Shown one piece after another: positions 45,841-62,840 of a stretch of 64,000 bases of DNA. Position 1 is the stretch's first letter. Each line of letters opens with the position of its first letter. Below the pieces are notes generated by a model that was given only the letters and a program-made list of their open reading frames with translations, searched no databases and was not told the DNA's origin. The position numbers and the translations under genes are program-made. This stretch comes from a virus: positions 60,222 through 124,221 of IMG/VR virus record IMGVR_UViG_3300026183_000930; one strand, written 5' to 3'.

Positions 45841-47319
45841 TTAATTTTGTGTTACTGTGGTTGTGCCACAACCTGACGAATTCACACAACTTTGTGTTAA
45901 TGAATATGTTTGATTACTGGAACCTGTTTGATCTAGATCCAGTGTTGATGAATATCCACTCATGTCAATGGTTGCTGACATGTTGCCAGAACCGTCTTGA
46001 TTTACATCTATGGTTTGATTACTGCCTGCTGTGACATCTAAAAAATGTTCTCCAGTGCCTTGTTGTATAAGATCAATGTCATTTGAAGAACCATTTATGT
46101 CTACAAACATGATCTTGTCACCATCGTCTTTTTGATCCATATACATGATATTGCTGTTGCCATCAACATCTACACTCATAAAATGACCTTCATCGCCAAC
46201 ACCCATACCATCGTTTTCCTGTAGAACACCCACTGTGTTGTAATTACCTGTGACATCAAGTATCAATCTAGAATCACCAGCATCGTCTACGTTGTCACCT
46301 TGTCTCACAGTTAAATTATTATTATTACCATTCACACCCATTAACACCACATTGTTGTCGCTGACTGAACCAGCATTGTTACCTTGTGTGATTAACACAG
46401 TGTTGTCATCACCTGATATCACAGCATCAGCAATAGTAGAACTTGTGGATGCGGTACCTGCCACAAGATTGTCATTGTCATACTGCACAATGTCCAAATC
46501 CAAATTGTCACCTGCTTGATCAATGTAGATAGCATTGCTGTTTGATGTGATGTTTCTTGTGTTGTCAACTATGGTTTGTTGTGCTGAAGTTATGCTTGAT
46601 GAGTATGTAGGTGTTGATGAATACAGGCCTTCTTGTTCCATCGTGGTTGTGAGGAACGTTGTCATGTTCGAAGTGTTGCTTATGTTTGTCTGGAACTGAT
46701 CATATCCCATGGCAACTATTATGCTACCACCGTTGGATCCATAGTCCCATTTATACCAAGTGTGCCAACTACTGCCATAGGAGTTGGATGCCATTGCTGT
46801 TCCACCCGTGGCGTTAAACAGTTGACCCGCTCCTGGCAATGTTGTTTGATATGCTGTGGCGTAATCACCCACTGTTATACTCTGCCAACACAGGTCTATG
46901 TTACAGGTGCTGGTGTTATAGGTCATGGTTCCTACACCCATCTTGTTTTCAATCAAGGACTCGATGGTGCTCTGTCTGTTGGAGGCTCCTTGTGGTGCGG
47001 CTATGATAAGTTTGCCTCCGCCACTCACATAAGTGTCATACACTGAACGACAGGTGCTACCACAGTTGGATGTGCCTGCTATGTCAATCACCAGTTCCTT
47101 GCCTGATACATCATTTGAACTTACTGAATTTGAAGTGCTACCTGTAACTGTAAAGTTTAAACTTTCAAGGTGTGACTTTAGTCGACTGTATTCAGCACCA
47201 GTGTCTGATGAGTTGTAGTATATGAATGCGTCATTGGCCTTGGCATTGTTACTAATTGCCATAAAAACAATTATGCCAAACAGTATAAAAGCCAATCTTG
47301 TTATTAATCTTTCAAACAT
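45841..47319 (-). CDS. Secreted curlin-repeat protein with N-terminal flavodoxin/GATase-like domain
   Basis: 492 residues. A signal peptide (about 1-28) precedes a domain of about 220 residues with an alternating strand/helix pattern (LKSHLESLNFTVTG, LVIDIAG, GGGKLIIAAPQGA) resembling the class I GATase/ThuA-like fold. The second half (about 260-492) contains repeats of the curlin type, (L/V)-x-I/V-x-Q-x-G-x-x-N, e.g. IYIDQAGDNLDLDIVQ and IDVNQDGSGNMS. This should be an extracellular amyloid-forming subunit or nucleator with an added domain. It starts by TAATG overlap with the FecR gene. Confidence 0.72.
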   Translation of the reverse strand: MFERLITRLAFILFGIIVFMAISNNAKANDAFIYYNSSDTGAEYSRLKSHLESLNFTVTGSTSNSVSSNDVSGKELVIDIAGTSNCGSTCRSVYDTYVSGGGKLIIAAPQGASNRQSTIESLIENKMGVGTMTYNTSTCNIDLCWQSITVGDYATAYQTTLPGAGQLFNATGGTAMASNSYGSSWHTWYKWDYGSNGGSIIVAMGYDQFQTNISNTSNMTTFLTTTMEQEGLYSSTPTYSSSITSAQQTIVDNTRNITSNSNAIYIDQAGDNLDLDIVQYDNDNLVAGTASTSSTIADAVISGDDNTVLITQGNNAGSVSDNNVVLMGVNGNNNNLTVRQGDNVDDAGDSRLILDVTGNYNTVGVLQENDGMGVGDEGHFMSVDVDGNSNIMYMDQKDDGDKIMFVDINGSSNDIDLIQQGTGEHFLDVTAGSNQTIDVNQDGSGNMSATIDMSGYSSTLDLDQTGSSNQTYSLTQSCVNSSGCGTTTVTQN

Positions 47320-48413
47320 TATTTTTGTATGATGTTGATATCATTACCACCACCTTCTCCTATAATAAAATCTCTTGTAGTAAAATCATCTTGTTGTAGA
47401 TCAAGTGTGTAACTGTAATTTTTATTCAGTCTTAACTGTACCACACTGGATGATCCTTCACGTCTAAAAAACCAATTTGATCCTTGATCTAGCAATATGA
47501 TATTGCCTGGTAGTTGTCCTACTTGCTGTTGTTTTTTCACAAACACATCAGTTAGTTCACTCAAAAATTCTGCCGCTAATATTTTGTTTAATTGTGCTAG
47601 TACATCTCCCAAAAAGTCACCTGCTAAAAAATCAATGTCTAGTTCTGTTTGCCACTGTTGATCATCTTGTGCTAGTAGGTCTTGGTCTAGCACATCAATT
47701 TCTAAAAAGTCTAATCCTAATATATCTGCTACAGATCGAACAGATTGTTCATCTTCTAGATCGTTAATTTCTCTTGGTGGCGACACAATCAACAGATTGC
47801 CCAACAGTGATTCATCTATTTCTAATGTTATTGCAGGTGTGGGCCTGCGTTCTGCTACTTCAACTCTGGTGGCTTGAAATGCTTGATTTAGTATGACCTG
47901 TCCCATAGCCGAATCCACTGTGATTTCACCTACCACACAGTTGCCATTTGAATTACATGAAGGCAATAAAATAATTGTTGATCCACCCAACTCGTCTACA
48001 ATCATAGCAAAGTCTGTGCCACGCACACCAATTGTTGCTGTGGGTGTTTTTATTTTGACATTGTCTTTGTAGTCTTTGGCAATTTGACCTGATGCGTATC
48101 TCACTGTGCCCAATGCGGCTGTGAGTGTTAGTCCACCTTGATTGTTGGCTGGATCATACACAAACTCGTCTATAATAAGTTTTGAATGTTCTGTGACTTC
48201 TACTCTGGTGTCGTCAATAAAGTCAATGGCAGTTCTGCCTTGACCTGTCATTACTTCATCATAGGAAAACACATCAAGACTCTGCTCAAGATCAATTTTA
48301 GCACCATCTGTGCGTTTGATCTTGCCTTTGCCTTCTAGCTCGCTCACAGCACCAATACTGGCCTGTGCTGACCATGAGAATAAAATCAAAAATAATGATA
48401 ATATAAATTTCAC
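47319..48413 (-). CDS. Secreted FecR-domain protein
   Basis: 364 residues. Signal peptide KFILSLFLILFSWSAQA, then a FecR domain (about 20-190) with the typical GKIKRTDGA, FIDDTRVEVTEHSKL and IKTPTATIGVRGTDF motifs. It lacks the N-terminal cytoplasmic anti-sigma helix and transmembrane segment of true FecR, so it is a periplasmic/surface FecR. The C-terminal part is acidic with LL-repeat stretches. The GTG start lies 3 bases after the curlin gene. It could sense or scaffold assembly of the curli-like fibre. Confidence 0.82.
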   Translation of the reverse strand: MKFILSLFLILFSWSAQASIGAVSELEGKGKIKRTDGAKIDLEQSLDVFSYDEVMTGQGRTAIDFIDDTRVEVTEHSKLIIDEFVYDPANNQGGLTLTAALGTVRYASGQIAKDYKDNVKIKTPTATIGVRGTDFAMIVDELGGSTIILLPSCNSNGNCVVGEITVDSAMGQVILNQAFQATRVEVAERRPTPAITLEIDESLLGNLLIVSPPREINDLEDEQSVRSVADILGLDFLEIDVLDQDLLAQDDQQWQTELDIDFLAGDFLGDVLAQLNKILAAEFLSELTDVFVKKQQQVGQLPGNIILLDQGSNWFFRREGSSSVVQLRLNKNYSYTLDLQQDDFTTRDFIIGEGGGNDINIIQK

Positions 48414-48415
48414 AG

Positions 48416-49126
48416 TTAGTCACTTTGTGTTATATCTACATCAAAACTATCGCCATTAACTGTTAGGTCAACTGTGTTGTCGTAGATACCACTTTGAGTA
48501 ATATCAATTGTTCCACCTCCACCATCTACATCTAATGTGATAGTGTTTCCTGCTGAATCACCGTTGCCAGTTTGTGAAGTTGTTAGTGCAACACCTTCAT
48601 CTGAATTAGCACTGGTTGTGGCCAATGAAGAACTATTGTTAATGTCAACTGTTAGTGCGGCACTTTGACCATCAACTGTTGAATTTATAATACTGTTGTC
48701 ACCAGTAACTGTGAAAGCCACTGTTGAGCTGTCTGAGTCAGCAGTTTCACCTATACGTATTGTATAGTCGTTGCTGTCACCAGTATTAGTAATATTCAGT
48801 GTCACAGTGTCACAGTTTCCTGCTGATGTACTAGAACATAACAAGTCTACTGTGTTTGACCCACCGGTAAATGTCCAAGTACCTGTATATGTGTCACCTT
48901 TGATTGTTGCATCAATTGTGTTGTAACTACCAGTTTGTGTAATTGCAAACGTCATGCTGTCACCTTGCAGTGTAGCATCAGTTGTTGAATCACCAAATTC
49001 GTTATCTTGACCATCTTGTGTGATATCTAAATCTAAATCATCACCTATTTGATCAATGTAGATATCATTTGCTACCAATGATGTTCCAAACATTGATAAC
49101 AACAATATTAAAATTAATCTTTTCAT
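48416..49126 (-). CDS. Curlin-repeat protein (CsgA/CsgB-like)
   Basis: 236 residues. A signal peptide (about 1-19, LILILLLSMFGTSLVA) precedes imperfect curlin repeats, e.g. IYIDQIGDDLDLDITQ, MTFAITQTGSYNTIDA and IDITQSGIYDNTVDL, with Gln-x-Gly-x-x-Asn spacing, ending VDITQSD. These repeats form beta-solenoid amyloid in curli. It overlaps the csgG stop by 4 bases (ATGA). It is Asp/Thr-rich and longer than CsgA (151), so its subunit role is inferred. Confidence 0.8.
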   Translation of the reverse strand: MKRLILILLLSMFGTSLVANDIYIDQIGDDLDLDITQDGQDNEFGDSTTDATLQGDSMTFAITQTGSYNTIDATIKGDTYTGTWTFTGGSNTVDLLCSSTSAGNCDTVTLNITNTGDSNDYTIRIGETADSDSSTVAFTVTGDNSIINSTVDGQSAALTVDINNSSSLATTSANSDEGVALTTSQTGNGDSAGNTITLDVDGGGGTIDITQSGIYDNTVDLTVNGDSFDVDITQSD

Positions 49127-49962
49127 TTACTTTCCTCTCTTATGTTGACCTGGGGATTGTTAATCTGTGAATCAATTACAATTGCTTTGTAATTCCAAAG
49201 ACCTTTAGAATGTCCAAGTTCAACTAAATCGCAGACCGCCTGCTCTATTGCGGCTCTTACTGCATAATTAACTGGTTCATTAACTGCCGTACCTGCTTCT
49301 ACTTCAATTAGTTTAGTGCCTAGGTCTAAAAATTTAAACACATCAGCACCAGTAGAATAACTGGCAATGTCTTTTTGTGTAGCAACAGAAAGAAGTACTT
49401 CTCCTGTGCTTACTGAAACAATACGCATGGACACTGTTACTGTGTCAACACGATATTGAGTTTTGGCACCAATACCTAGGTATCGTGCACCAGAGCCGCC
49501 TGTGACCACATTTGAATCATAGCCTACCACGGCACCTTCTACAATTAAACCAGCAAAAAGTAAAGGTTTTAATTTTTTATCTTTTTCGTCTTCATACTGT
49601 TCTCTGGTTGAACGAATCAATTGTCGTTCTTTGACTAGATTGTCTAGTCCTCCTCTTTCAACAACTGTGAACCATGTGTTGTTGCCCACTTCTGACAGTG
49701 CTTGAATTACCCAAACTTCAGCACCTTGAGTTACAGCACTTGAAAGTTGTGAAAAGTTTTGACTTGGTTTACGTTGTCCTGTTTTGTCATTAAAACTGTA
49801 AACTGCTATTGTGATTTTTGGACCATCAAGTTCTGGTATTGCTTTGAACTGTTGTTGTAATGGTGCCACAGCAGTTTCTGGTGCTTTGAATCCGTTTACA
49901 CCGGCATGGCCGGCACATCCTGCCAAGGCTATCAATAATAACAAAGCAAATATCTGTCTCAT
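49123..49962 (-). CDS. csgG: CsgG-like curli secretion channel lipoprotein
   Basis: 279 residues from ATG 49962 (E. coli CsgG 277), after rejecting a TTG four codons upstream. Lipoprotein signal with lipobox LAGC, then the CsgG pattern: KITIAVYSFNDKTGQRKPS, FTVVERGGLDNLVKERQLI, LLFAGLIVEGAVVGYDSN, TVTVSMRIVSVSTGEVL and a C-terminal YAVRAAIEQAV. CsgG forms the nonameric outer-membrane pore for curli subunits. In a phage it may export the curlin-like proteins or act as a late-stage pore. Confidence 0.93.
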   Translation of the reverse strand: MRQIFALLLLIALAGCAGHAGVNGFKAPETAVAPLQQQFKAIPELDGPKITIAVYSFNDKTGQRKPSQNFSQLSSAVTQGAEVWVIQALSEVGNNTWFTVVERGGLDNLVKERQLIRSTREQYEDEKDKKLKPLLFAGLIVEGAVVGYDSNVVTGGSGARYLGIGAKTQYRVDTVTVSMRIVSVSTGEVLLSVATQKDIASYSTGADVFKFLDLGTKLIEVEAGTAVNEPVNYAVRAAIEQAVCDLVELGHSKGLWNYKAIVIDSQINNPQVNIREESK

Positions 49963-49963
49963 A

Positions 49964-50422
49964 TTAAAATCCAAAATCTCCTACTGGCACAGTAAGTGTT
50001 GTTATAGTACCATCTGCTTCTGTGATTCTAATTGATATTTCACCTAGGTCTACATCTTTTTCCCAATAAATGGTGGCACCTTCTATTTCAGCAGTGCCTG
50101 TGGTTTGTCCTCCTGATGAGAACATGTTGTCTACCAACTGTTTAGATAGGTTGGCATAGATTCTTGATTCCACATTGGCAATGAATTTGTTTATTACTTC
50201 ATTATTTTCATCACGTTCTGCGTCTCTGAGTTTCTTTTCTATGTCTTTACGTAATTCTTCTTTACGTTGAAATTGCAGTTGCTCTGTGGCTAACACATGA
50301 TTTGAATAGCCATTTCCTGAAAAACTAGGATTTGAAAATTCTTGTGTTAATTCGCTCGCCTGAATAGAACTCATAGAAGCAACAAACGTCACAAAAATGC
50401 TGTAATATATATATTTTTTCAT
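49964..50422 (-). CDS. csgF: CsgF-like curli assembly factor
   Basis: 152 residues (E. coli CsgF 138). Signal peptide (about 1-23), then the CsgG-binding N-terminus LTQEFSNPSFSGNGYSNHVL, matching CsgF's FxNPxFGG pattern, a helical middle and a beta-type end (TITTLTVPVGDFGF). CsgF caps the CsgG pore and couples it to nucleation. It stands one base upstream of csgG, the usual F-G order. The ribosome site is weak. No late motif is obvious in its 100-base upstream gap. Confidence 0.85.
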   Translation of the reverse strand: MKKYIYYSIFVTFVASMSSIQASELTQEFSNPSFSGNGYSNHVLATEQLQFQRKEELRKDIEKKLRDAERDENNEVINKFIANVESRIYANLSKQLVDNMFSSGGQTTGTAEIEGATIYWEKDVDLGEISIRITEADGTITTLTVPVGDFGF

Positions 50423-52202: not shown

Positions 52203-52508
52203 CTATTTAACAATCCTTAAAGTCATGCCATCTAAAGCATCTGTTAATTGTATTTGGCAACTCAACCTACTGTTTTTGTTTCTGTCTTCACTGTCTAACA
52301 ATGCATCTTCATCTTCATCCATTTTGGGTAACAGATTCAAATACTGATCATCAATTTTGACATGACAAGTGGCACAGGCACAACAGCCTCCACACATCAT
52401 AAAGTTGTCTGGTGAAATTTCTTTTTTGATCACTGAAGCCAACGTTTCATATGATTGTGCTTCAATTACATGCTCTTTGTCGTCTCTGTCAATTACTGTT
52501 ATTTTCAT
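52203..52508 (-). CDS. [2Fe-2S] ferredoxin, adrenodoxin type
   Basis: 101 residues. The ligands CGGCCACATC give C-x5-C-x2-C and the last Cys is in SRLSCQIQL, which is the adrenodoxin/bacterial Fdx spacing. It could supply electrons to QueE or oxygenases, and receive its cluster via the IscA-like protein. It has its own promoter, just after tRNA-Asn. Confidence 0.9.
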   Translation of the reverse strand: MKITVIDRDDKEHVIEAQSYETLASVIKKEISPDNFMMCGGCCACATCHVKIDDQYLNLLPKMDEDEDALLDSEDRNKNSRLSCQIQLTDALDGMTLRIVK

Positions 52509-52754: not shown

Positions 52755-53028
52755 CTGAATCCTGTTCAGATTCTTTGTTGACTGTCATTGATGATTCCAT
52801 GTAATCTGCAACTACTGATATATTTTCTTTTGCTTTGGTAATTTTTGATGCTACCCAACCTTCAAGGTTGTCGCCTTTTTTAATCATTTCAATTAATTTG
52901 ATAGCATCTTTGGCAATGTGATATAACTGACCTCTAGCCATTGATGCCTCGTGATCATGCTGACCATAGTCACGATCTAATTCATAATGATTTTGTGTTG
53001 CTTGTTTCCATTTTCTAATATCGTCCAT
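52738..53028 (-). CDS. Conserved marine T4-like phage helical protein (96 aa)
   Basis: 96 residues. It carries the motif ARGQLYHIAKDAIKL, then LEGWVASKITKAKENISVV, a helical pattern (QLYKIAK ... LEGWVQSKITKASDYI) that I recall in many cyanophage proteins, apparently as an oligomerisation module. Role unknown, likely virion. It follows the 60-aa gene with a one-base overlap. Confidence 0.6.
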   Translation of the reverse strand: MDDIRKWKQATQNHYELDRDYGQHDHEASMARGQLYHIAKDAIKLIEMIKKGDNLEGWVASKITKAKENISVVADYMESSMTVNKESEQDSVDKTE

Positions 53029-53210
53029 TATGCTTTCTCCTTGGCTTGTTTTGTTATAGTTGCAAAATATGCCTGCTCACCTCTCTCTGCTCCATATTGA
53101 TCAATGAAATTCTGTTTCATGTCTGTCTTATCATATTTTTTCTTAAGAGATTCACGTTTGTTGTATTCTGCTTTGGTAAGTTTTCGTTCAGTGATATCTT
53201 GAATTAACAT
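53028..53210 (-). CDS. Small basic late protein (60 aa)
   Basis: 60 residues, MLIQDITERKLTKAEYNKRE, highly charged and helical, ending TKQAKEKA. It carries the short N-terminal M-x-(I/L)-x-(D/E)-(I/L) tag of this cluster. The TATAAATA late promoter ends 5 bases before the ATG, with no ribosome site. Confidence 0.6.
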   Translation of the reverse strand: MLIQDITERKLTKAEYNKRESLKKKYDKTDMKQNFIDQYGAERGEQAYFATITKQAKEKA

Positions 53211-53214
53211 AGTA

Positions 53215-53475
53215 CTATTTATAGATGTCTTTTACTTTTTTAGTATATGCTAGAGTGTCACCACTGTGTCCCATTTTGTAAGGTTTCATTTTGAGTTTTT
53301 TACCGTGAAATATATGACCCATTGGATCTATAGCACGTCTGGCTGTGGCATGATGTGCCGCACCTTTTTGCCCTGTGAAAAGTGGCATGGCAATTGAAGC
53401 CATCACACCTGATGTTGTTGCACCAGCAGTTGCGTCTTCATTAATTTCTATATTAAATATTTCAGCTATTAACAT
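53215..53475 (-). CDS. Small late protein with N-terminal tag (86 aa)
   Basis: 86 residues, MLIAEIFNIEINEDATAG, then a Gly/Ala-rich hydrophobic stretch (GATTSGVMASIAMPLFTG) and a basic C-terminal half with several His (AAHHATARRAIDPMGH). It has an AAGGA ribosome site and an upstream late promoter. Unknown, probably virion. Confidence 0.55.
   Translation of the reverse strand: MLIAEIFNIEINEDATAGATTSGVMASIAMPLFTGQKGAAHHATARRAIDPMGHIFHGKKLKMKPYKMGHSGDTLAYTKKVKDIYK
53216..53223 (-). promoter_or_regulatory. Perfect late promoter abutting the 53210 start
   Basis: The minus strand reads TATAAATA GTACT ATG, a perfect consensus with the 5-base spacing of the leaderless class. Confidence 0.75.
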
Positions 53476-53494
53476 AATGTATTCCTTACTAAAG

Positions 53495-53502
53495 TATTTA
53501 TC
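53495..53502 (-). promoter_or_regulatory. Late promoter (leadered) for the 53475 gene
   Basis: The minus strand reads GATAAATAC, 19 bases before the ATG, with AAGGA in the leader. Confidence 0.6.
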
Positions 53503-53527
53503 TTATGTTTTTAGTTTGAGTGTTTAA

Positions 53528-53845
53528 TTAAACTGAAATTTCTTTGTCTTTGTTGGTTTGAATCTGTTTTTCTAGTTCTTTTTGCTTTTTTTCGTTTTCA
53601 ATGTCTTGCATCATTTTAAGTAATTTTTCACCAACAGATTTAAATTCTTGATACTTTGGATCATTTAAAACTTTGTCACTTAAAAACTTGTCCATAAAAT
53701 CAAAATTCTGTGGTATTTCATTTGGCCATGCTTTGGTAGGAAAAGCACCTAAAGCCAATGCACCCATACCTGCCACAGCAGATTTTCCCATGGCTTTCAT
53801 AAAATTTCTTCTGTTGTTCTCTGTTGTGATTTCACTTATTCTCAT
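53528..53845 (-). CDS. Late protein with twin-arginine-like segment (105 aa)
   Basis: 105 residues. The N-terminal tag MRISEITTEN is followed directly by NRRNFMKAMGKSAVAGMGAL, a good match to a twin-arginine (Tat) signal: RRxFxK, hydrophobic core and AFPTKA cleavage-like end. The remainder is a coiled coil. It would be exported folded if the signal works; alternatively, the hydrophobic stretch serves in the virion. It overlaps the SOD-like gene stop by 4 bases. Confidence 0.55.
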   Translation of the reverse strand: MRISEITTENNRRNFMKAMGKSAVAGMGALALGAFPTKAWPNEIPQNFDFMDKFLSDKVLNDPKYQEFKSVGEKLLKMMQDIENEKKQKELEKQIQTNKDKEISV

Positions 53846-54486
53846 GCTTCTAATCTTCTGTTTAGTTTGTTCCAGTCTATCAATTTTAGCACTGCTGTAA
53901 CATATTTAGCCTTGGCATCTTTGGCTGGTGTGTAGTCTGTGAAACTGTGTTCCCACATGTCTATTGGCATGAACACATCTGATCTGAAACTTTGATTTGG
54001 TGTGGTTTTAATTGTGCCTGTTTTGGTCAAGTATACCCAACCTGAACCTTGTATGGTCATGGCCGCTTCTACCAACTTGTCTGCTAAACCTTTTAGATCT
54101 CCGTAATTGGCAAACACTGTTTGTTTGATCGGACCATCTATTGTGCTTGATTCTTTGGCTGGTTTGAATTGTTGCCACCAAAGATTGTGCAACTTGGCAC
54201 CACCATAATTGAAATCTGCATCACCTTCTTTGTTGTTGTATCTGGTCACATAACCTCTGCTTAATACATCATAATGATAATCTACATTTTGTTTTGACAA
54301 CACTGGTTGTAATGCATCTAGGTTGTAAGGTAATTTTTCTAATTCCAATTGTTCTTCTTTGGCTTCTTTCATCATAGACATCATTGCTTCACGTCTGTTC
54401 TTTGCCAACTCTTGTTCCAAAGACATCACTGACTGTGCGGGTGTTTCGCCTATGCCTGCTAATTTTTTTAGATAGTCAAGATCCAT
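53842..54486 (-). CDS. Fe/Mn superoxide dismutase-like protein with phage N-terminal extension
   Basis: 214 residues. From residue 52 it follows SodB: LPYNLDALQPVLS, DYHYDVLSRGYVT, FNYGGAKLHNLWW, GSGWVYLTKTGTIK, PIDMWEHSF, AVLKLIDWNKLNRRL. All four metal ligands can be placed (H71, H100, D176, H180), while the active-site HH and gateway Tyr pattern (KHHQTYV) is changed to VLSRGYV. The first 50 residues are a phage-type extension with KKLAGIGETP. It lies in a late cluster, so it may be a virion-borne SOD or a metal-binding structural relic. Confidence 0.72.
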   Translation of the reverse strand: MDLDYLKKLAGIGETPAQSVMSLEQELAKNRREAMMSMMKEAKEEQLELEKLPYNLDALQPVLSKQNVDYHYDVLSRGYVTRYNNKEGDADFNYGGAKLHNLWWQQFKPAKESSTIDGPIKQTVFANYGDLKGLADKLVEAAMTIQGSGWVYLTKTGTIKTTPNQSFRSDVFMPIDMWEHSFTDYTPAKDAKAKYVTAVLKLIDWNKLNRRLEA

Positions 54487-56598
54487 TTAACGGACCTTGT
54501 TGAATGCTGTTTTCACTGCTCCAGCAGTTTGTGGATTTGATATTGCTTTTGAAAGTTTTGAAACATATGGTTCAACTGCTTTGATCTGTGTTGGTGTTAA
54601 ACGATCACCTTTTGCTATTGCATCAAATCCTTTTGCTGTCAATTGCGGTGACATAGTAGTGTCAACTGAAGGTTTAACTGAATTTAAACCTCTTGCAAGA
54701 TCCTGTGTGGCTTCTACTGGTTCTTCGTCTCTTGCTAATTTGTAACCCTGCTGTGCTCTGTCCATTGCATCATCTTCTATGCTTTTTCTAATGGCTTCAA
54801 TTCTTTTGCCTGTTTCACCTGTTCTTGCTTGAATTTCTTCATCTGACTTACCATCACCAATCAGTTTACTGATTAAATCATGTGTCATTTTAGCATAGTC
54901 TTCTTGCATCTGCATTGGTACTATGCCAGCCAGTTTTTGCATTCTGGCAATGTCATTGTCTTTGTTTCTGTTGGCAACATTTAACATGTTGTCATAATCA
55001 GTTTTTTTAATTGACTCATTTTCTACTTCAACACTAGTAACTGCTTTTTTTGAATCAGCTCTTCTTTGCTTGTTGGCATCATGTTTGATCTGTTTCAGCA
55101 CTTTGTTTTTGGCTCTTGGTGTTAACACGTCATGTTTGGCATCTCTACCTTTTTGTGTTGGCACATCATCTTGTTCTTTGAATGTTTTGCCATCTTTGAA
55201 ATCTACTTGATGTACGCCACCTTCTCTGTCTTGATACTCAATTGAAATTCCTTTTGGACCTGCACCTTGGCTTAGAATTTTGTAACCTTGGTCTTGAATA
55301 TAGTCAATAAAGTTTCTTGCTTCATCATCGAGATCTTCGTTAACATCTTCGTTGTATGGATCTTTGGCTTCTGTGCCACATTTCACACACTTTGAACCAT
55401 AATGGAATCCACTGTCTTCACCTTGATCAAGAGCATCTATGAGTGCGGCCTCACCTGCATCACCTGGTTTTTGATCGGGTCTGATCTCATCTTCATATTC
55501 ACGTTCCCAATCTTGAATGTACTTTTGTGCGTCCTGGGGACTCATTGAAAATTCATTTTCTGTGCCACATTTTTTGCAGTTCCATGTGTATCCATACACA
55601 TTATTAGAATCTTCTTTGATGCCTTTAATGTTTGCTGTGGCGGCTTTGAATTGTTGATACAATGTTTTGATCTTGGGTGCAAACTTTTTATCCACTAACA
55701 CAGCATCACCTTGTCCTGCAAACCCACCTGGTTGTGCTTGGCTAACTGCTGTAGACACAGTGTCAATAAAGTCCTCATAAAAATCGTAACCTGGAATACC
55801 GGACATATCCAAATATTGAAGAACATCACCATATGAGAACATATCGTCCTCTGAAACTTCTTCACCAGCCATTATGGTTTGATAAATGTCTTTCATGTTC
55901 CACAGTGCGGCATTCACCAATGCTGGGTGATCTTCACCTTCGTTATGATTGTAAGGGTTATCATCAATACCTGTGGCTCTTCGGGTCTTGCCTTTTTTGC
56001 CATATCCCACAGTGCCTGTGCTCATGTTATTTTCTTCAACTAAACCTAAATCATCAAGTCTATTTGCAATCCATTCATCTGGCATACCTGTTCTTGCCTT
56101 CATAACACCATATGGCATTTCACCTGAATCCATATAGTAGCCAAATAATTCTTCATATGCTAGTGTGCCAAGTTCTATGTCATCTGCTTTTGTTATACCA
56201 TGCTTGTCTAGTATTGCTTTGACTTCTTTGTATTCTGAATCCATTGTTTCGTTGATGCCTAATTCTTTTGCCACTGCTGATCTGTCCAAATCAAAAGTGT
56301 GTACTTTGACACCATCTGCTGTTTTTTCTGGATATGCTCTTAAATTTTTTGCTTTGATTATATCAACAATCTTTTTGATATCTGCATTTTTAAAAATGTG
56401 ATATGTTGGTTCTGATTGCCCTTGATACCCACTAGCCTCTTCTACTTTGCTTTTGTGTTTTTGATACCCTTTTTTGACTTCTTTTTTCTTGTCAATTTCA
56501 GTTTTTGCTTTAAACTGTGGATTTGCTCGTAACTCTTGTGCTATAGGATTACGATTTTTAATCTCTTTTTTGTTTTCAAATAAATCTGTCAAGTTCAT
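54487..56598 (-). CDS. Large acidic late protein with two CxxC zinc-ribbon-like pairs (703 aa)
   Basis: 703 residues, hydrophilic, with the N-terminal tag MNLTDLFENKKEI. WNCKKCGTENEF and SKCVKCGTEAKDP, about 75 residues apart, form two CxxC pairs suggestive of one zinc ribbon. DIARMQKLAGIVPMQ contains the KLAGI motif also found in the SOD-like neighbour. No enzyme motif. A GTAAATA late-type motif stands 5 bases before the ATG. I suggest a virion or internal protein. It abuts the next gene without a gap. Confidence 0.6.
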   Translation of the reverse strand: MNLTDLFENKKEIKNRNPIAQELRANPQFKAKTEIDKKKEVKKGYQKHKSKVEEASGYQGQSEPTYHIFKNADIKKIVDIIKAKNLRAYPEKTADGVKVHTFDLDRSAVAKELGINETMDSEYKEVKAILDKHGITKADDIELGTLAYEELFGYYMDSGEMPYGVMKARTGMPDEWIANRLDDLGLVEENNMSTGTVGYGKKGKTRRATGIDDNPYNHNEGEDHPALVNAALWNMKDIYQTIMAGEEVSEDDMFSYGDVLQYLDMSGIPGYDFYEDFIDTVSTAVSQAQPGGFAGQGDAVLVDKKFAPKIKTLYQQFKAATANIKGIKEDSNNVYGYTWNCKKCGTENEFSMSPQDAQKYIQDWEREYEDEIRPDQKPGDAGEAALIDALDQGEDSGFHYGSKCVKCGTEAKDPYNEDVNEDLDDEARNFIDYIQDQGYKILSQGAGPKGISIEYQDREGGVHQVDFKDGKTFKEQDDVPTQKGRDAKHDVLTPRAKNKVLKQIKHDANKQRRADSKKAVTSVEVENESIKKTDYDNMLNVANRNKDNDIARMQKLAGIVPMQMQEDYAKMTHDLISKLIGDGKSDEEIQARTGETGKRIEAIRKSIEDDAMDRAQQGYKLARDEEPVEATQDLARGLNSVKPSVDTTMSPQLTAKGFDAIAKGDRLTPTQIKAVEPYVSKLSKAISNPQTAGAVKTAFNKVR

Positions 56599-56603
56599 AA
56601 TAA

Positions 56604-56611
56604 TATTTACC
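56604..56611 (-). promoter_or_regulatory. Late-type motif abutting the 56598 start
   Basis: The minus strand reads GTAAATA TTATT ATG: one mismatch to ATAAATA and the same 5-base spacing as the leaderless class. Confidence 0.5.
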
Positions 56612-57099
56612 TAATTTGCCCAAACATGTGTAGCACCATTTTGTTTGCCTGTTCTAGCAATTTGATTCATCTGTTTAATAACTCTGTTGAAATAACCTTC
56701 TGGTCTACCGCCACTAATAAATGTAGCACCACCTGGATTTTTCTCAATCTGAGATGGTTCTTCTGGGGACTGTTTTCCAATATGCTTTTGCAACCATTGT
56801 GTAGTTCTTGCAATAAATTCATCTATTGGAAAAGGTGGAGCATCTTCTAAATCTGTTGGATATCCTAATGTACTCATTACTTGTCTCATGCTGGCATTTG
56901 CTAGTGTTAAATCTAGTTCTGGTTTGTAGTTAGGATTTTTAGGTGGTTCTTCATCACCATACATGTACTTGTCGCTGTTTTTGTAAAAATCTTCACCGTA
57001 TTGATCACCCGAATCTGTGTCAGAAGTCCAATACCCCTTCTGTTTATGTTTGTGACCTGCGGTAAACGACATTGACTCTAATAATTCTGAATATCTCAT
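56611..57099 (-). CDS. Late phage protein with N-terminal tag (162 aa)
   Basis: 162 residues, MRYSELLESMSFTAGH, then a Tyr/Asp/Lys-rich part and a globular C-terminal half (MSTLGYPTDLEDAPPFPIDEF, ATFISGGRPEGYFNRV). An AATAAATAC late promoter ends 5 bases before the ATG. A similar protein occurs, as I recall, in cyanomyoviruses; function unknown, likely virion. Confidence 0.55.
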   Translation of the reverse strand: MRYSELLESMSFTAGHKHKQKGYWTSDTDSGDQYGEDFYKNSDKYMYGDEEPPKNPNYKPELDLTLANASMRQVMSTLGYPTDLEDAPPFPIDEFIARTTQWLQKHIGKQSPEEPSQIEKNPGGATFISGGRPEGYFNRVIKQMNQIARTGKQNGATHVWAN

Positions 57100-57104
57100 A
57101 AAAG

Positions 57105-57112
57105 TATTTATT
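57105..57112 (-). promoter_or_regulatory. Late promoter abutting the 57099 start
   Basis: The minus strand reads AATAAATAC TTTT ATG, leaderless class, with the same sequence through the ATG as the promoter at 58958. Confidence 0.7.
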
Positions 57113-57121
57113 AATTAAAAG

Positions 57122-57427
57122 TTATTTTTTAGGACTTGTAGATACTCTTATAGGCTTATTGCCTTGTCCTTTTTGCGTTTTTCCACCTCGTCCTGCTTTA
57201 TTTTGAGCCGCACGTTTTCTTCTTGTTGCAGATTGTTTTTCTTTTTTGCTCATGCTAGATGCTTTGTTGGCTGGTACACATTTAGCATATCCTTTTTTAT
57301 CACCGCTTGTACCACATTCAGGATGACTGCCATCTTTGTTTTTTTTGCCAATGTTTACCCATTTCTGTTTAAACCATTTACGCAGTCCGCCTTTGTATTC
57401 TTCATTTAAAATTTCATTTATCAACAT
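57122..57427 (-). CDS. Small basic late protein with paired-Cys module (101 aa)
   Basis: 101 residues from ATG 57427 (MLINEILNEEYKGGLR), chosen over ATG 57460 because it gives the cluster's N-terminal tag and follows the upstream stop by 10 bases. The core WVNIGKKNKDGSHPECG ... GYAKCVPANKASSM and a Lys/Arg-rich tail match a small basic family found in cyanophages. Basic and Cys-paired, probably DNA-binding or virion. Confidence 0.6.
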   Translation of the reverse strand: MLINEILNEEYKGGLRKWFKQKWVNIGKKNKDGSHPECGTSGDKKGYAKCVPANKASSMSKKEKQSATRRKRAAQNKAGRGGKTQKGQGNKPIRVSTSPKK

Positions 57428-57437
57428 AACTCTAATT

Positions 57438-57641
57438 CTATTGCATTGTTGGTTTGCCAAAAAGTAATTTAACAGTTATTGTGGCATCATCATTGATTTC
57501 GTAAGTCATCATGCCATCTGTTTGATTAGGGTTAATAAAACCTTCATCATGCAAATAATTTGCCAGTGCTTGTATCACTTGATCTACATTAAGATTAATA
57601 ACTTTATCGTCAGTACTTGATGTAGTTTCTTTGTTATCCAT
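57438..57641 (-). CDS. Small acidic protein (67 aa)
   Basis: 67 residues, with VINLNVDQVIQALANYLHDE and a short beta end (ATITVKLLFGK). It may be a compact helix-strand domain. Ribosome site AAGGAAAAA. Unknown. Confidence 0.5.
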   Translation of the reverse strand: MDNKETTSSTDDKVINLNVDQVIQALANYLHDEGFINPNQTDGMMTYEINDDATITVKLLFGKPTMQ

Positions 57642-57643
57642 TT

Positions 57644-57931
57644 TTATTTTTCCTTACTATTTGGTTCAGTAATTTCTAATACCAAATCTGTTTTGCCTTT
57701 AATGATTCTATGATATTGCTCTGCTTCAATTGTAAAAGTATCATTTTTAAAAATTTCTTTTGGTAAAGAATCTTCTAACTGAACTTTCCATCCTGTGCCT
57801 TCAAGCACTTTAATTATTCGTGTGTTGTGATCTTGATGCCAAACTAATTCGTTAGCATCTACAGAACTTTCAAAAACACGTCTAATTATTCCTTTTGCCA
57901 GTGAAGTCTGTGAGTAAGGCTTTACCACCAC
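57644..57931 (-). CDS. Small cupin-like phage protein (95 aa)
   Basis: About 94 residues, starting at one of two adjacent GTG codons (57931 or 57928) behind an AGGAGG ribosome site. ELVWHQDHNTRIIKVLEG, GWKVQLEDSLPKEI and EAEQYHRIIKGKTDLVLEI form a small double-stranded beta-helix pattern with His positions, as in cupins of T4-like marine phages. Its start overlaps the upstream gene by 10 bases. Ligand unknown. Confidence 0.55.
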   Translation of the reverse strand: MVVKPYSQTSLAKGIIRRVFESSVDANELVWHQDHNTRIIKVLEGTGWKVQLEDSLPKEIFKNDTFTIEAEQYHRIIKGKTDLVLEITEPNSKEK

Positions 57932-58593
57932 TGGCCTCCTTTAACTCCTAGACTTTTATATCTTGGAGTACGACAAGCCCAATAACCTGCTTTGGTCTTA
58001 TCTTTTTTGTTTTTGCAATCATGTCTTGCTACAAAACTTTTCACTGCACCTGGATTGTTTGCTTTGGTTTTTAAACCTGTGGTGTCACCCCAACTGACTT
58101 TTTTAATCTTTCCTGTTTTAGGATTACGAGTGTACACATAATACTTTTTACTACCACCTCTTTTAGGTTTGTTTAATTCAACTTTTTTACCTTGATATTC
58201 TGCTTCGTTGATATTTTTATTTTTATTATAACAGTCACAATGTTTACAATCTGGGCCACATGTACAATCTTTAACAGGTGCTCCACAACATTCTTTTGAA
58301 CACATTTCTACACCATCTTTATACCATGTGTCTTTTGCTTCAAATGGTAAATCAAGTGCAATATCACCTTGTGTTGTTTTTAATACTTTACCTATTTCTG
58401 TTTCAAATAATTCTTGATCTTCCCAGTCAACTGTTAATAATCCTTCTTCATACATTTTACGAGCTTCACAAAATAATTTAAAAAAATTATCTGTGCCTGG
58501 TCTAAAAATATTTTCTCTAAAAGGTATATTATTTTTGATATGATACTGTATTGCTTCTGCAATTTTATTTGTTTCTAATTCTGCTAATCTCAT
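57922..58593 (-). CDS. Late phage protein with N-terminal tag, Cys-rich middle and basic GGQWW end
   Basis: 223 residues. It has the tag MRLAELETNKIAEAI, then a middle with clustered Cys (MCSKECCGAPVKDCTCGPDCKHCDC), probably metal binding, then a basic domain: YVYTRNPKTGKIKKVSWGD, FVARHDCKNKKDKTKAGYW and KGGQWW. The last part occurs as a module in other phage proteins. Likely a virion or DNA-associated protein; no enzyme motif. Confidence 0.6.
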   Translation of the reverse strand: MRLAELETNKIAEAIQYHIKNNIPFRENIFRPGTDNFFKLFCEARKMYEEGLLTVDWEDQELFETEIGKVLKTTQGDIALDLPFEAKDTWYKDGVEMCSKECCGAPVKDCTCGPDCKHCDCYNKNKNINEAEYQGKKVELNKPKRGGSKKYYVYTRNPKTGKIKKVSWGDTTGLKTKANNPGAVKSFVARHDCKNKKDKTKAGYWACRTPRYKSLGVKGGQWW

Positions 58594-58952
58594 TATCTCC
58601 AGCCTCCACCTGCTTTTTTATACATTTTGGCCGCCCAAGCATTTGCATAAGCCGATGGATAAACATCAAACTTTTGCTTTGCTTGTGATTTATAATATGC
58701 CCATTTGCTAGGATTTGTTGGTTTTGGTTTTTTTGCTTCAGACACTGACTTACCTTTTTGAACTCTGTCCCAGTAGTAAGGACTCATCTTGCCGTATCCG
58801 TGTCTCCATGCCATTTGACGTAATCTTGTTTCATCAAAATCTTTGAAACGATCTGCAAGTTCTTGGTCAGTCATGTTGGCTAATTTTTGCTTGTGCTTTA
58901 TGATAGAACCAGGCATTCTCTCACCAAGTGTAATCAATTCTTGAAGTTTCAT
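58593..58952 (-). CDS. Late basic phage protein with YPSAYANAW motif (119 aa)
   Basis: 119 residues. Tag MKLQELITLGERMPG, then RLRQMAWRHGYGKMSPYYWDRV and the motif FDVYPSAYANAWAAKMYK with end KAGGGWR, a family seen in cyanophages and other large DNA viruses. Basic (many Lys/Arg). The ATAAATAC late promoter lies 5 bases before the ATG. It is probably packaged or DNA-binding; inference. Confidence 0.6.
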   Translation of the reverse strand: MKLQELITLGERMPGSIIKHKQKLANMTDQELADRFKDFDETRLRQMAWRHGYGKMSPYYWDRVQKGKSVSEAKKPKPTNPSKWAYYKSQAKQKFDVYPSAYANAWAAKMYKKAGGGWR

Positions 58953-58957
58953 AAAAG

Positions 58958-58965
58958 TATTTATT
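58958..58965 (-). promoter_or_regulatory. Late promoter abutting the 58952 start
   Basis: The minus strand reads AATAAATAC TTTT ATG, leaderless class. Confidence 0.7.
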
Positions 58966-59734
58966 TCAGAAAGATTGTTTTTGGTGTGTAAGTTTCTCTG
59001 TTAAAATCTTCAGGTCTTCCTCTTGGATTACTATGATATGTCACTGTGTTTTGCACAAATTCCTGTTGATCATGATTGTGTCCAAAACACCATAGTTTTA
59101 TTTTGTTGTAATACAGTGGTAATTCTTCCATTAATGCATTTCCATAACAACCCACTGCTTTTTGTATTGGTGGATAAACTGCCCAACTTATTGCTCTTTT
59201 TACTGGTAGTGTGTGAGTTATGCAAACAATTGATTCTATGTTGTCATTCCATTGATACTCTGCTAACCAATTGGCCATCTGTGCATAATCGCTGGCTGAC
59301 TGTTTTAAAATTTTAATTGCTGTGTCTTGTCCAAACTGTTTGGTTGTGTGTTCAAAACTGTATGATCTTGGCACATATGGTTCGCCAATTTTAAAATCCC
59401 ACCATCCATTGATTCCTAAAAATACACAGTTGTCTTTGACATATGGTTGTTTGGAAAGATAATGTAAGTTTTCAATGTCTTTGGTTTTGTTGTAAACTTT
59501 GTCACACAAAGAATTCATTGGAAATCCTACACCTTGATGTTCGTGATTTCCATCAATAAACAAAATCTGTTTGTATTCATCTTTTACACGGTTTAACCAT
59601 TCCACAGTTAATTTGGGATCATCGCTTACATCTCCAGCAACAACTAATAAATCAGAATTTTTGTGTTGTAAAAAATCATAATTGTTATTCCAGTGTTCTA
59701 CATGAACGTCACTTACTAAATCAAAATTCAACAT
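58961..59734 (-). CDS. Calcineurin-like metallophosphoesterase
   Basis: 257 residues. All five metal-site blocks occur in order: LVSDVHVEHW, VVAGDVSDD, FIDGNHEHQ, ITHTLPV and FGHNHDQQ. It hydrolyses a phosphomonoester or diester; candidates are nucleic acid, cyclic nucleotides or Ap4A-type molecules. A cAMP-phosphodiesterase role would counter the encoded cyclase, but no subfamily signature settles this. It ends inside the late promoter of the downstream gene. Confidence 0.88.
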   Translation of the reverse strand: MLNFDLVSDVHVEHWNNNYDFLQHKNSDLLVVAGDVSDDPKLTVEWLNRVKDEYKQILFIDGNHEHQGVGFPMNSLCDKVYNKTKDIENLHYLSKQPYVKDNCVFLGINGWWDFKIGEPYVPRSYSFEHTTKQFGQDTAIKILKQSASDYAQMANWLAEYQWNDNIESIVCITHTLPVKRAISWAVYPPIQKAVGCYGNALMEELPLYYNKIKLWCFGHNHDQQEFVQNTVTYHSNPRGRPEDFNRETYTPKTIFLK

Positions 59735-59776
59735 TTTTTTCTTCTTTGTTTACTTAACTATGTAGTATAGTTTGAA

Positions 59777-60340
59777 TTAACTGTTTTGTCTACCACTTTT
59801 CATGTTGGCACACCAATGATACATTTTAGCCTTTTCACCACTGGATTTTTTTGCTTTTGCTCTTAAACTTGTAACTGATCCTTTGCAACTGGCACCTGCA
59901 CGTTTTACTCTGCCTGGTCTTGATTTGCCTTTTACTTTGCCATCAGCAAAATTTTCAACAGCAAATTCTGGATTAGGTGTTGCAAAATTAGACTTACGCA
60001 TGATTGTTTTTGCAACAAGATCTAATTCTTGTCCATCCCATTGCAATGCAAAAGGAATATTAACATCTGTTCGCATGTCTTTCATCACTGCTTCTGCATC
60101 TGGTCCTAACTGTGCAATTGGTTTACCGTGTTGTTTGTAAACTTGTTTGAATAGTCTTGTGAGTTCTGCCATTGTTATTGGCTTTTGATTTCTTGGATCG
60201 TTTACTCTGTCTTTGAAATGTTTTGAAAATTCAATGTCTATACCCAATGAAGCAAACAATCTGTCAGCATAAACTTCAAGTTGTTGTAAATCTTGATCAG
60301 TAATTTCTTTGTTTTCTTTTAGTAATTCAAAAAACCTCAT
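59777..60340 (-). CDS. Late phage protein with N-terminal tag and basic Cys tail (187 aa)
   Basis: 187 residues. Tag MRFFELLKENKEI, then a globular part (FSKHFKDRVNDPRNQKPIT, AQLGPDAEAVMKDMRTDV) of a kind I recall from cyanophages, then a basic tail RPGRVKRAGASCKGSVTSLR with a second Cys (YHWCANM). The tail resembles the paired-Cys modules of its neighbours. It overlaps the next gene by 4 bases. Confidence 0.55.
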   Translation of the reverse strand: MRFFELLKENKEITDQDLQQLEVYADRLFASLGIDIEFSKHFKDRVNDPRNQKPITMAELTRLFKQVYKQHGKPIAQLGPDAEAVMKDMRTDVNIPFALQWDGQELDLVAKTIMRKSNFATPNPEFAVENFADGKVKGKSRPGRVKRAGASCKGSVTSLRAKAKKSSGEKAKMYHWCANMKSGRQNS

Positions 60341-60954
60341 TTAACAAATGCTCCAATTCTACCATGCATATCAGGATGTTTTATATATTTGTACCCTTCA
60401 GGTGCTTTGGTGCTTTGTCCTTCCCATACAGGTAGATATTCTTGTCTATCACCTTCAAAGTCTACATTGTGTCTAAAATGCATTTCAATGACCTTACCAC
60501 CAATGTATTCAACATTCAATCTTGGTCTATTTCCAAAATGCTTTTTGATAAGCGGATGTAACGGCACTTGCTCATCTACACGAATCCATTTATCCCAACG
60601 TTGTAATGTGTTTTCTTTTTTGAATCCTTCTACACATCTTACTTGTTTACCTTTATCATAATCAACTGTAAAATGTCTACCTTTAAACCATTCACACCAA
60701 AATGTTCCTATAGGTAAATGATTTGTGTTTTTTTTGAGGTGCATTTTCTTTGCACCCATTCCTAAACCAAAAACATTAAGCACGGGTCTTATGATATAAT
60801 CACCTTCTTTTGGAACTTCAATACCTGCTGGACCACAAGTGTATCCTAATTTTTTTGAAAGAATCAGTTTATCTAATGCCCATAAATCATCTATCTTTGG
60901 ATTCTTCCAATACAAATCTTCTTCGTCAGGACCAATGACTTCGTTTAATCTCAT
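60337..60954 (-). CDS. Late phage protein, possible ATP-grasp-like fold (205 aa)
   Basis: 205 residues. Tag MRLNEVIGPDEEDL, then GDYIIRPVLNVFGLGMGAKK, WIRVDEQVPLHPLI and NVEYIGGKVIEMHFRHNVDF. The order of strands (IIRPV..., EYIGG..., EMHFRHN) resembles an ATP-grasp core, but the catalytic set cannot be confirmed. 4-base overlaps on both sides show tight coupling with its neighbours. Confidence 0.5.
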   Translation of the reverse strand: MRLNEVIGPDEEDLYWKNPKIDDLWALDKLILSKKLGYTCGPAGIEVPKEGDYIIRPVLNVFGLGMGAKKMHLKKNTNHLPIGTFWCEWFKGRHFTVDYDKGKQVRCVEGFKKENTLQRWDKWIRVDEQVPLHPLIKKHFGNRPRLNVEYIGGKVIEMHFRHNVDFEGDRQEYLPVWEGQSTKAPEGYKYIKHPDMHGRIGAFVK

Positions 60955-62840
60955 TTCTTTTTACGTCCTGCACAGTGAGCCTTTTGACTAAAACCTTTGG
61001 GATTTGTGCAATCAATACTTTTTTTATATTTTGCACTCCATTTTTCTTGTAACTCTTTTAGCTCTTGTTCTAAAATTTCAATTCTTTCTTTGACTGGTAG
61101 CATGTAATGATTTTTTCTACCTTTGGTCAGCAAAGGTAATGTTCTGTATGCTTTGAACCATTTGTCAGTTCCAGGTTCAGAAGTCTTTTTCATTTTTTGA
61201 TATTTAGATGTGCCTGGCAGTGTTAATAAACTTTTATCACCTTTGTCATTTTGAAATTTTAATTCATCTTCTACTATAGCACTAAAAATACTTTTCTTTT
61301 CTCGTATGTTTGGTGGTCTTCCATCTCTGTCTACTTTGAATCCTAATTTAGCAGACTGTTTTGTTATGGCATCAACACCAACATCTACTGTGGTATTAAC
61401 TCCTTTAACAACTCTGCCTCCCCATTCATTGACCTGTTTAGTGTCAGGATCATGATAAAGATAAGTGTGCTTGGTGTCTCTTGAATTTAAACCAGTGTGC
61501 TTTTTGATACGTTTCATGTATTCATTTTTTACTTTTTCGCTTTGAAAAGTAACAAGTGTATCTGGTTTACCATTTGGTCCATATTTTTTTCTATCTGCCT
61601 GATCCAAGTTAGATATATCTTTTGTAAGTTCATAATAATCACTTTTGCTGTCTATGTCAACAACCAATGTGTTATCAGGAAAAGGTATTAAATCTCCTTC
61701 ATTGACTTGAGCAAAACTACCCGAATTAATTGCTTTGTTGATAGGTGCAACTTTTGAAAGGTCTTGTTTTTCAACATACTTCAATGCTTGTGAAACTCTG
61801 TTTAAATTGTCTTTGTTGGCTTGATATCTAATTCCAATACCGCCTTTGGCTTGCCATCTTTCAATATTGCTTGGTTTGTCATCAATCAATATGTTTGGCA
61901 ACCCTGTGGTTTTGTCTACAGCATAACTTTCTTTTCTGCCTGTTATGATAACACCATTTGGTGTGAACCCGTTTGATCTTAACCAATCCAACTTATGCTT
62001 TTTTGAATTCTCATAATCTCCACGCAAAGGAGAACTGCAAATATACCATTCGCCACCTGTGAAACTTTTTACAATGTTAATTAATTCTTTTGATGTTGCA
62101 AACAAAGGCAATGTTGAAAAGAAGTCTGTGCCTGCTATTGCTTTGATACTGTCTTCAACACTGATTTCACCTTTGTCTTTCCAATGATTTACTTTTCTAA
62201 ATTTTGCCAATGCTGAAAAAAAGTCAGCAATAACACCATCCATGTCAACATACACTTTTGGTTTTTGTGAAACTTCTTCTTGTATTCCTTCAGTAGATAT
62301 ATTCATTCCTGTTCTTACAGCGTCATACATTTCTTTTGCAATGCCTGGATTAGCAACACCTTGTTTGAAACTTTCAAAATCACCATCCACTGCCGCTTGA
62401 CGCATTTTACTTGCACTCATACCTTCAACACTGTCATCGGACTCTTCGTCCCTAACACCAGCAGTTACAACTTTGATAGAATCAAATTTATAATCTTTAC
62501 CATTGTACTTTGGTAAAAGTTCAGAAAAATAAGGAACTCTATCAGATCCTACAACAAGCACAACATTTGCATAACCTTTTTTCTGTAAAGACTGCATGGC
62601 TTGTATTATGGTCTTGACATTTGGATCACCTATGGCGATATCTGAAAAACTCTGTTTAGCAAATTTTAACTTTTGCTCAAAAGACAAAGGATCTTTTTTG
62701 GCATTTTGAGTGTGTGTTAAAAATAAAAAAGGTTTTCCAGGTAAACTTTTGATTTTGTCAATGACTTTTTTGTGACCAATAGTAGGAGGATTCATTCTAC
62801 CAAATGTAAAAACTGCTGTGTTAAGTTCGTTTGCTCTCAT
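60951..62840 (-). CDS. Nucleotidyltransferase-HAD phosphatase fusion (629 aa)
   Basis: 629 residues. Domain 1 (about 1-190): tag MRANELNTAVFTFGR, then NPPTIGH (HIGH-type nucleotidyltransferase site) and SASKMRQAA (ISSTxxR-like), as in NMN/pantetheine adenylyltransferases. Domain 2 (about 195-345): KVYVDMDGVIADF, a HAD nucleophile DxDG, ITGRKESY and LIDDKPSNIERW, like a 5'(3')-nucleotidase. The C-terminal part ends with a basic paired-Cys module (CTNPKGFSQKAHCAGRKKK). It may be a nucleotide- or cofactor-processing virion protein. The fusion is uncommon outside phages. Confidence 0.75.
   Translation of the reverse strand: MRANELNTAVFTFGRMNPPTIGHKKVIDKIKSLPGKPFLFLTHTQNAKKDPLSFEQKLKFAKQSFSDIAIGDPNVKTIIQAMQSLQKKGYANVVLVVGSDRVPYFSELLPKYNGKDYKFDSIKVVTAGVRDEESDDSVEGMSASKMRQAAVDGDFESFKQGVANPGIAKEMYDAVRTGMNISTEGIQEEVSQKPKVYVDMDGVIADFFSALAKFRKVNHWKDKGEISVEDSIKAIAGTDFFSTLPLFATSKELINIVKSFTGGEWYICSSPLRGDYENSKKHKLDWLRSNGFTPNGVIITGRKESYAVDKTTGLPNILIDDKPSNIERWQAKGGIGIRYQANKDNLNRVSQALKYVEKQDLSKVAPINKAINSGSFAQVNEGDLIPFPDNTLVVDIDSKSDYYELTKDISNLDQADRKKYGPNGKPDTLVTFQSEKVKNEYMKRIKKHTGLNSRDTKHTYLYHDPDTKQVNEWGGRVVKGVNTTVDVGVDAITKQSAKLGFKVDRDGRPPNIREKKSIFSAIVEDELKFQNDKGDKSLLTLPGTSKYQKMKKTSEPGTDKWFKAYRTLPLLTKGRKNHYMLPVKERIEILEQELKELQEKWSAKYKKSIDCTNPKGFSQKAHCAGRKKK

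Follow-up and report, generated by a model that had tools for sequence, protein, structure and literature searches.

Why a large phage should encode a superoxide dismutase (SOD)-like protein with some 50 residues ahead of its enzyme core, and where that protein acts, is the question raised by the gene at 53842–54486 of the window, the 64,000-nt stretch of viral DNA analysed here. The first-pass annotation had read it as an injected or virion-surface SOD, or as an SOD fold put to structural use. The source record is a 124-kb fragment of a T4-superfamily phage, and its DNA polymerase is nearest to those of two jumbo phages, Sinorhizobium phage Phosso (50%) and Agrobacterium phage Atu_ph07 (48%).

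The SOD homologue and its active site

The proposed SOD-like open reading frame was borne out; it lies on the minus strand, encodes 214 aa and carries both Pfam domains, Sod_Fe_C (E 2e-15, 57.1 bits, cut-off 20.9) and Sod_Fe_N (E 7.9e-11, 42.7 bits, cut-off 27), above the gathering scores that define the Fe/Mn superoxide dismutase family. Both E-values are so low that chance is excluded, and the PDB matches comprised 160 distinct sequences, the best being an Mn-SOD (E 1.8e-17). No PHROG matched the protein, and against the NCBIfam SodA and SodB equivalogs it reached 59.6 bits at best, below the cut-off of 300. Judged by these profiles, it is firmly an SOD-family homologue and is not a canonical SodA or SodB. 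The features of the gene are listed below, with a slash marking a predicted cleavage point here and throughout.

53842–54486, minus strand: SOD-like gene, 214 aa, core at residues 47–214
54451–54486, minus strand: residues 1–12, MDLDYLKKLAGI, putative head-core motif of the scaffold-C-terminus type
54361–54366, minus strand: predicted prohead-protease site MMKE41/A42, falling in the alignment where short-tailed relatives have their processing-site-like position
54274–54276, minus strand: metal ligand H71 (EcSodA H26), invariant in 115/115
54262–54264, minus strand: L75 in place of gateway His30, Leu in 115/115 viral sequences
54250–54252, minus strand: Y79, equivalent to Tyr34, 115/115
54187–54189, minus strand: metal ligand H100 (EcSodA H81); G96, four residues before, is the Mn-type Gly77
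53992–53994, minus strand: Q165 in TPNQSF, aligned with second-sphere Gln146; His in many relatives
53959–53961, minus strand: metal ligand D176 (EcSodA D167), invariant in the viral set
53947–53949, minus strand: metal ligand H180 (EcSodA H171) in W178-E179-H180, invariant in the viral set
53938–53940, minus strand: T183 at the dimer-interface Tyr174 position; A/M/S/L/T/I among the residues listed there for viral sequences

The residues that the first-pass annotation had named as metal ligands (H71, H100, D176 and H180) align with the ligands of EcSodA, EcSodB and human SOD2, and the GSGW and WEH segments are both present. The reported alteration of the HH/gateway region can be specified further: EcSodA His30 is L75 and His31 is S76, with Tyr34 retained as Y79. 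The N-terminal extension of about 50 residues with KLAGI is likewise real, the SOD core beginning at about residue 47.

Active-site positions were counted over 115 distinct viral SOD sequences. The His-His-Asp-His ligands are kept in 115/115, as are Tyr34, Gly77, Trp128, Trp169, Glu170 and His171, while the mean column identity in a 34-sequence viral alignment is 49%. Position 146 is Gln in 46 and His in 64, plus one His in the Vibrio phage. Around this invariant site, gateway His30 is Leu in all 115, the dimer-interface Tyr174 is lost (A/M/S/L/T/I among the residues listed), the Trp130 position is Tyr or Phe, and the stretch from Tyr34 to His81 spans 21–22 residues versus 36–48 in cellular enzymes, so that the alpha-hairpin is cut short. 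In MnSOD, His30 pairs with Tyr174 (human Tyr166) across the dimer interface, which makes their joint loss a coordinated change.

Published rates for human MnSOD indicate what such changes may cost: with a wild-type k1 of 1.5, H30N gave 0.21, H30Q 0.57, Y166F 0.2 and H30N/Y166F 0.1, the double mutant showing cooperativity rather than greater loss, and His30Val lowered k1 to about 0.005 (PMC9208312). By analogy with His30Val, Leu at position 30 may leave the viral SOD severely low in dismutase activity, unless the small residue at position 174 makes room for it. Since the other outer-sphere residues are all retained, we nevertheless consider dismutase activity of the window protein likely, though uncertain.

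A phage-only family with tailed N-termini

Scanning IMG/VR with the window SOD alone returned 97 relatives; an alignment as query raised this to at least 580. Those with names come from Pseudomonas jumbo phages of the PA5oct/MIJ3 group and from Vibrio phage 2.275.O, where SOD annotations exist. Identity to cellular relatives is about 30% across the entire core and reaches 38% at most when a part is taken. A branch with 100/99 support in a maximum-likelihood tree separates 65 viral SODs from 24 cellular sequences, the cellular sample being small and the two named phages sitting on long branches; in this tree the viral SODs are a phage-only clade. Recent capture of the gene from a host was considered and rejected, given the single viral clade and the lack of a close cellular relative. 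Two SOD-like sequences with the viral Leu30/Met174 occur in metagenome-assembled genomes of Kaiserbacteria/Paceibacterota (L147 and L172, from genome_contigs), and are possibly phage contigs in these bins or a related cellular group.

Cellular SODs begin at the core, whereas nearly all viral ones have an N-terminal tail, with a median of 17 residues. The motif h-x-E/[ASGNKE] is present in 94/116 viral tails, whereas 19.6% of N-termini matched in length from comparable genomes have it; the SODs counted are kin and not independent events, and this motif expression, like the others used here, was written after the data had been inspected. Most tails resemble the tags of T4 head proteins, such as MKTYQEFIAE/A of ipII/ipIII and MAKINELLRE/S of gp24; examples are MKYDQLTE/A, MREFINLLE/A, MKDFKTYINLVE/A, MRATEFLTE/S and MKLNDFLIE/A, with plain T4-type tags in L242 (MRATEFLTESKEK), L235 (MKVNDFLTEAREV) and L259 (MKLNDFLIEAKQQ). 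The PA5oct SOD has the tail MNDSIKKYISIAE/AA, and a tail is absent from the SOD of Vibrio phage 2.275.O. In T4, the capsid-targeting sequence puts foreign proteins into the head core (PMC9958956). In place of a short T4-type tail, the window SOD has MDLDYLKKLAGI followed by MMKE/A, and its nearest relatives (L004, L005, L006 and L216) have the same peptide or a close variant. From these patterns we infer that the h-x-E tail would be a site for a gp21-type protease, with MMKE41/A42 as the candidate site in the window SOD.

The LAGI peptide recurs at the C-terminus of the gp22-like scaffold, whose gene is flanked by those of the prohead protease and the major capsid protein and whose homologue is annotated as scaffolding protein in 121Q and MIJ3. 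The scaffold ends in EELRRLAGIK in PA5oct, NDLKRLAGIKK in Atu_ph07, HELRRLAGIEK in Phosso, DLRRLAGL and NIKRLAGLRS in the phages of L059 and L004, and LTKIAGIRK (IAGI) in Vibrio 2.275.O, with weaker LAGI ends in CBB and 121Q. In four genomes, 9 LAG[IL] motifs lie no more than 25 residues from a terminus, whereas shuffling gave 1.3 on average and 5 at most. A LAGI peptide also begins small proteins next to the SOD in L013, L014 and L037, and the 50-residue extension of the window SOD is plausibly a fusion with such a peptide. The window SOD uses a scaffold-type LAGI peptide at its N-terminus instead of a T4-type tag. LAGI as a property of T4 was rejected: T4 gp22 itself lacks a LAGI end, so the motif belongs to the jumbo lineage.

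Tagged neighbours and virion evidence

Most genes from 53028 to 62840 start with M[RKLN]-h-x-[ED]-[LI]:

54487–56598, minus strand: upstream gene, 703 aa, abutting the SOD start, with an MNLTDLFE/N tag and an internal DIARMQKLAGI
53528–53845, minus strand: downstream gene, 105 aa, with an MRISEITTE tag, then twin-arginine RRNFMK
53215–53475, minus strand: 86-aa protein beginning MLIAEIFNIEINE/DATAGATTSG, a tag joined to a copied cleavage context of the major capsid protein
56611–62840, minus strand: genes of the same tag family, MRYSELLE, MLINEILNE, MRLAELE, MKLQELI, MRFFELLKE, MRLNEV and MRANEL

The gp67-like core proteins encoded next to the portal start likewise (Vibrio MKLVELFEANTD, 121Q MLKDIFESSSD, PA5oct MKINDIITEG), and across the relatives genes no more than three positions from the SOD are tagged more often than those of the comparison set (44/489 vs 20/506, p 0.001). 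The cleavage context of the 86-aa neighbour, NE/DATAGATTSG, parallels VE/NASAGATQAGN of the PA5oct capsid protein, and among the roughly 1,250 ORFs of four genomes the pattern E-x-ATAGAT is confined to 4: two capsid proteins and two neighbours of this kind. The first-pass annotation had assigned the gene to a virion gene cluster; this was an inference, and what ties the gene to the head is the tags it shares rather than capsid genes beside it. A T4-type prohead protease (PF03420) is encoded in 6/15 records, which are the larger relatives and include both named phages. A gp21-type protease was not found in the 124-kb record, which is incomplete, and for this reason the head operon apparently lies outside it.

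Several further features of these neighbourhoods were observed. Tagged small proteins that copy both the cleavage context and the mature N-arm of the major capsid protein (E-x-ATAGAT-x-x-G) are encoded at 53215–53475 (minus strand) of the window, and in L004 (6456–6707), L006 (8466–8717), L013 (7371–7589) and L014 (8451–8669). The next gene, described earlier as Tat-like, overlaps the SOD gene as ATGA and does contain the RRNFMK motif; a tag stands directly before a twin-arginine signal both here (53528–53845, minus strand, MRISEITTE then RRNFMK) and in L005 (5648–5962, MRLAEIFE then RRDFMK). With this order, cleavage in the head would leave the Tat signal as the new N-terminus, which suggests that the protein is exported to the host periplasm after injection. 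The 703-aa tagged protein with the LAGI motif (54487–56598, minus strand) varies from 549 to 788 aa between near relatives and is possibly a variable, injected protein. A curli-like operon with CsgF, CsgG, curlin-repeat and FecR-like proteins lies at 45841–50422 (minus strand), and in L010 a curlin-like ORF is just upstream of the SOD. The window also encodes an IscA-type protein and a 2Fe-2S ferredoxin (36859–37185 and 52203–52508, minus strand), and IscU-, IscA- and glutaredoxin-like genes were recognised by sequence beside the SOD in L052, L060, L066 and L074.

Indirect evidence from virions comes from PA5oct, in which the SOD homologue EST35_0261 (GenBank MK797984) bears the note ESI-MS/MS. 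Altogether 93 CDS of MK797984 bear this flag, among them structural proteins plus RNR and thymidylate synthase, and carry-over of the SOD is possible, as with other flagged enzymes that are likely carry-over. The PA5oct scaffold, EST35_0153, which is expected to be degraded, is not flagged. The N-terminal motif of the window type was weakly enriched among MS-flagged PA5oct proteins (4/90 vs 3/296, p 0.054), and a looser tag pattern showed no enrichment there (7/93 vs 12/296, p 0.18); neither comparison is taken as proof. The neighbours of the PA5oct SOD gene are ClpS, heat-shock, ClpX and GTP cyclohydrolase genes rather than head genes.

Explanations and comparison with known systems

The explanation that we favour, with somewhat better than even confidence, is that T4-related jumbo phages load a metal-binding SOD into the head, where it would be trimmed, and inject it with the DNA. 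The tag, a capsid-targeting helix in short-tailed relatives and the LAGI peptide here, would draw the SOD into the scaffold core; a gp21-type protease would cut after h-x-E, here at MMKE41/A42; and the trimmed SOD would stay with the DNA and enter the host cytoplasm with it. There, with Mn or Fe, it would remove superoxide around the incoming genome and around redox-sensitive (Fe-S) enzymes, ahead of phage gene expression. Sequence and the one indirect experiment, in PA5oct, support packaging well and make the SOD a probable cargo of the head core; injection and catalysis are what we infer beyond packaging. The earlier proposal of an injected SOD thus gains from the head-core tags, the same-tagged neighbours and the ESI-MS/MS flag on the PA5oct homologue. 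A broader version is more tentative: many cargo proteins might be loaded into jumbo-phage heads by an address in two parts, the N-terminal tag E-[LIF]-x-x-E and a movable LAGI peptide derived by copying the scaffold C-terminus, with the SOD pre-loaded for delivery on injection and the Tat cargo exported to the periplasm.

The protein might instead be an ordinary auxiliary-metabolism SOD, synthesised in the infected cell to guard Fe-S and ribonucleotide-reductase enzymes and not packaged, its tail having no head function. Fe/Mn SOD has been counted among viral auxiliary metabolic genes (PMC12542629, with no packaging claim in the part of the paper available to us), many relatives have IscU-, IscA- or glutaredoxin-like next genes (by N-terminal sequence only), and the IscA-type protein and ferredoxin of the window, like the metabolic surroundings of the PA5oct gene, fit this reading. 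It leaves unexplained, however, the tags common to the scaffold, the gp67-like and the neighbouring proteins, as well as the MS flag, and we regard it as rather unlikely; the two roles could coexist in a protein that works once injected and again when made late in infection. Less probable still is a non-catalytic component of the head core, an SOD fold with a structural metal serving assembly or metal storage. The loss of His30 in all and of Tyr174 throughout, the 22-residue hairpin in place of 36–48, and the near inactivity of His30Val human MnSOD (PMC9208312) would suit such a part, but Tyr34, Trp128, Trp169, Glu170 and Gln/His146 are kept and would be unneeded without catalysis, and, Val apart, enzymes with one substitution at His30 or Tyr166 retain substantial rates (PMC9208312). 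The structural role proposed in the first pass is disfavoured by the invariance of the metal site over 115 divergent sequences, yet keeps some probability because His30 and Tyr174 are lost. That the SOD is exposed on the surface or associated with the tail is highly improbable: all that speaks for it is the earlier suggestion of a virion-surface SOD, and against it stand tags that are those of internal core proteins, made for the inside of the prohead, and the absence of an export signal of its own and of a tail or fibre domain in the Pfam and PHROGs searches.

If the preferred reading of a packaged SOD holds, a bacteriophage particle would deliver an antioxidant enzyme whose family, missed by PHROGs v4, numbers at least 580 in contigs of environmental phages; superoxide at DNA entry would then appear to be a selective pressure on large phages, and the tags would let jumbo-phage cargo be predicted from sequence.

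Like the cellular Fe/Mn SODs (E. coli SodA/SodB and human SOD2; PF00081 and PF02777), the window protein has both domains, the four ligands, Tyr34, Trp128, Trp169, Glu170, the Mn-type Gly77 and Gln146 (His146 in many relatives). Unlike them, the viral proteins have Leu30, no Tyr174, a 22-residue hairpin and a separate clade with 100/99 support, and the window SOD has a putative N-terminal head-core tag and 59.6 bits against the equivalog cut-off of 300. The SODs of PA5oct/MIJ3 and Vibrio 2.275.O share the viral clade and the His30 loss; they are about 30% identical to the window SOD, are without the LAGI module and are annotated as hypothetical or as SOD only. A precedent for a packaged SOD is the Cu/Zn SOD (a245r) of chlorovirus PBCV-1, a eukaryotic virus; it is described as packaged in the virion and has an unrelated SOD fold, and the portion of the report available to us mentions no head-core tag (PMC7019647). 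A parallel in design is with T4 IPI-III and Alt, which have a capsid-targeting sequence, are cleaved by gp21 and are injected: most viral SODs likewise have a short N-terminal tag-like tail with h-x-E before a folded putative cargo, and a prohead protease is present in relatives, whereas the putative SOD cargo is a metalloenzyme fold and the N-terminus of the window member is a LAGI peptide of the scaffold-C-terminus type. A phage SOD and an internal head protein are each already known; what is new is the N-terminus of the phage SOD.
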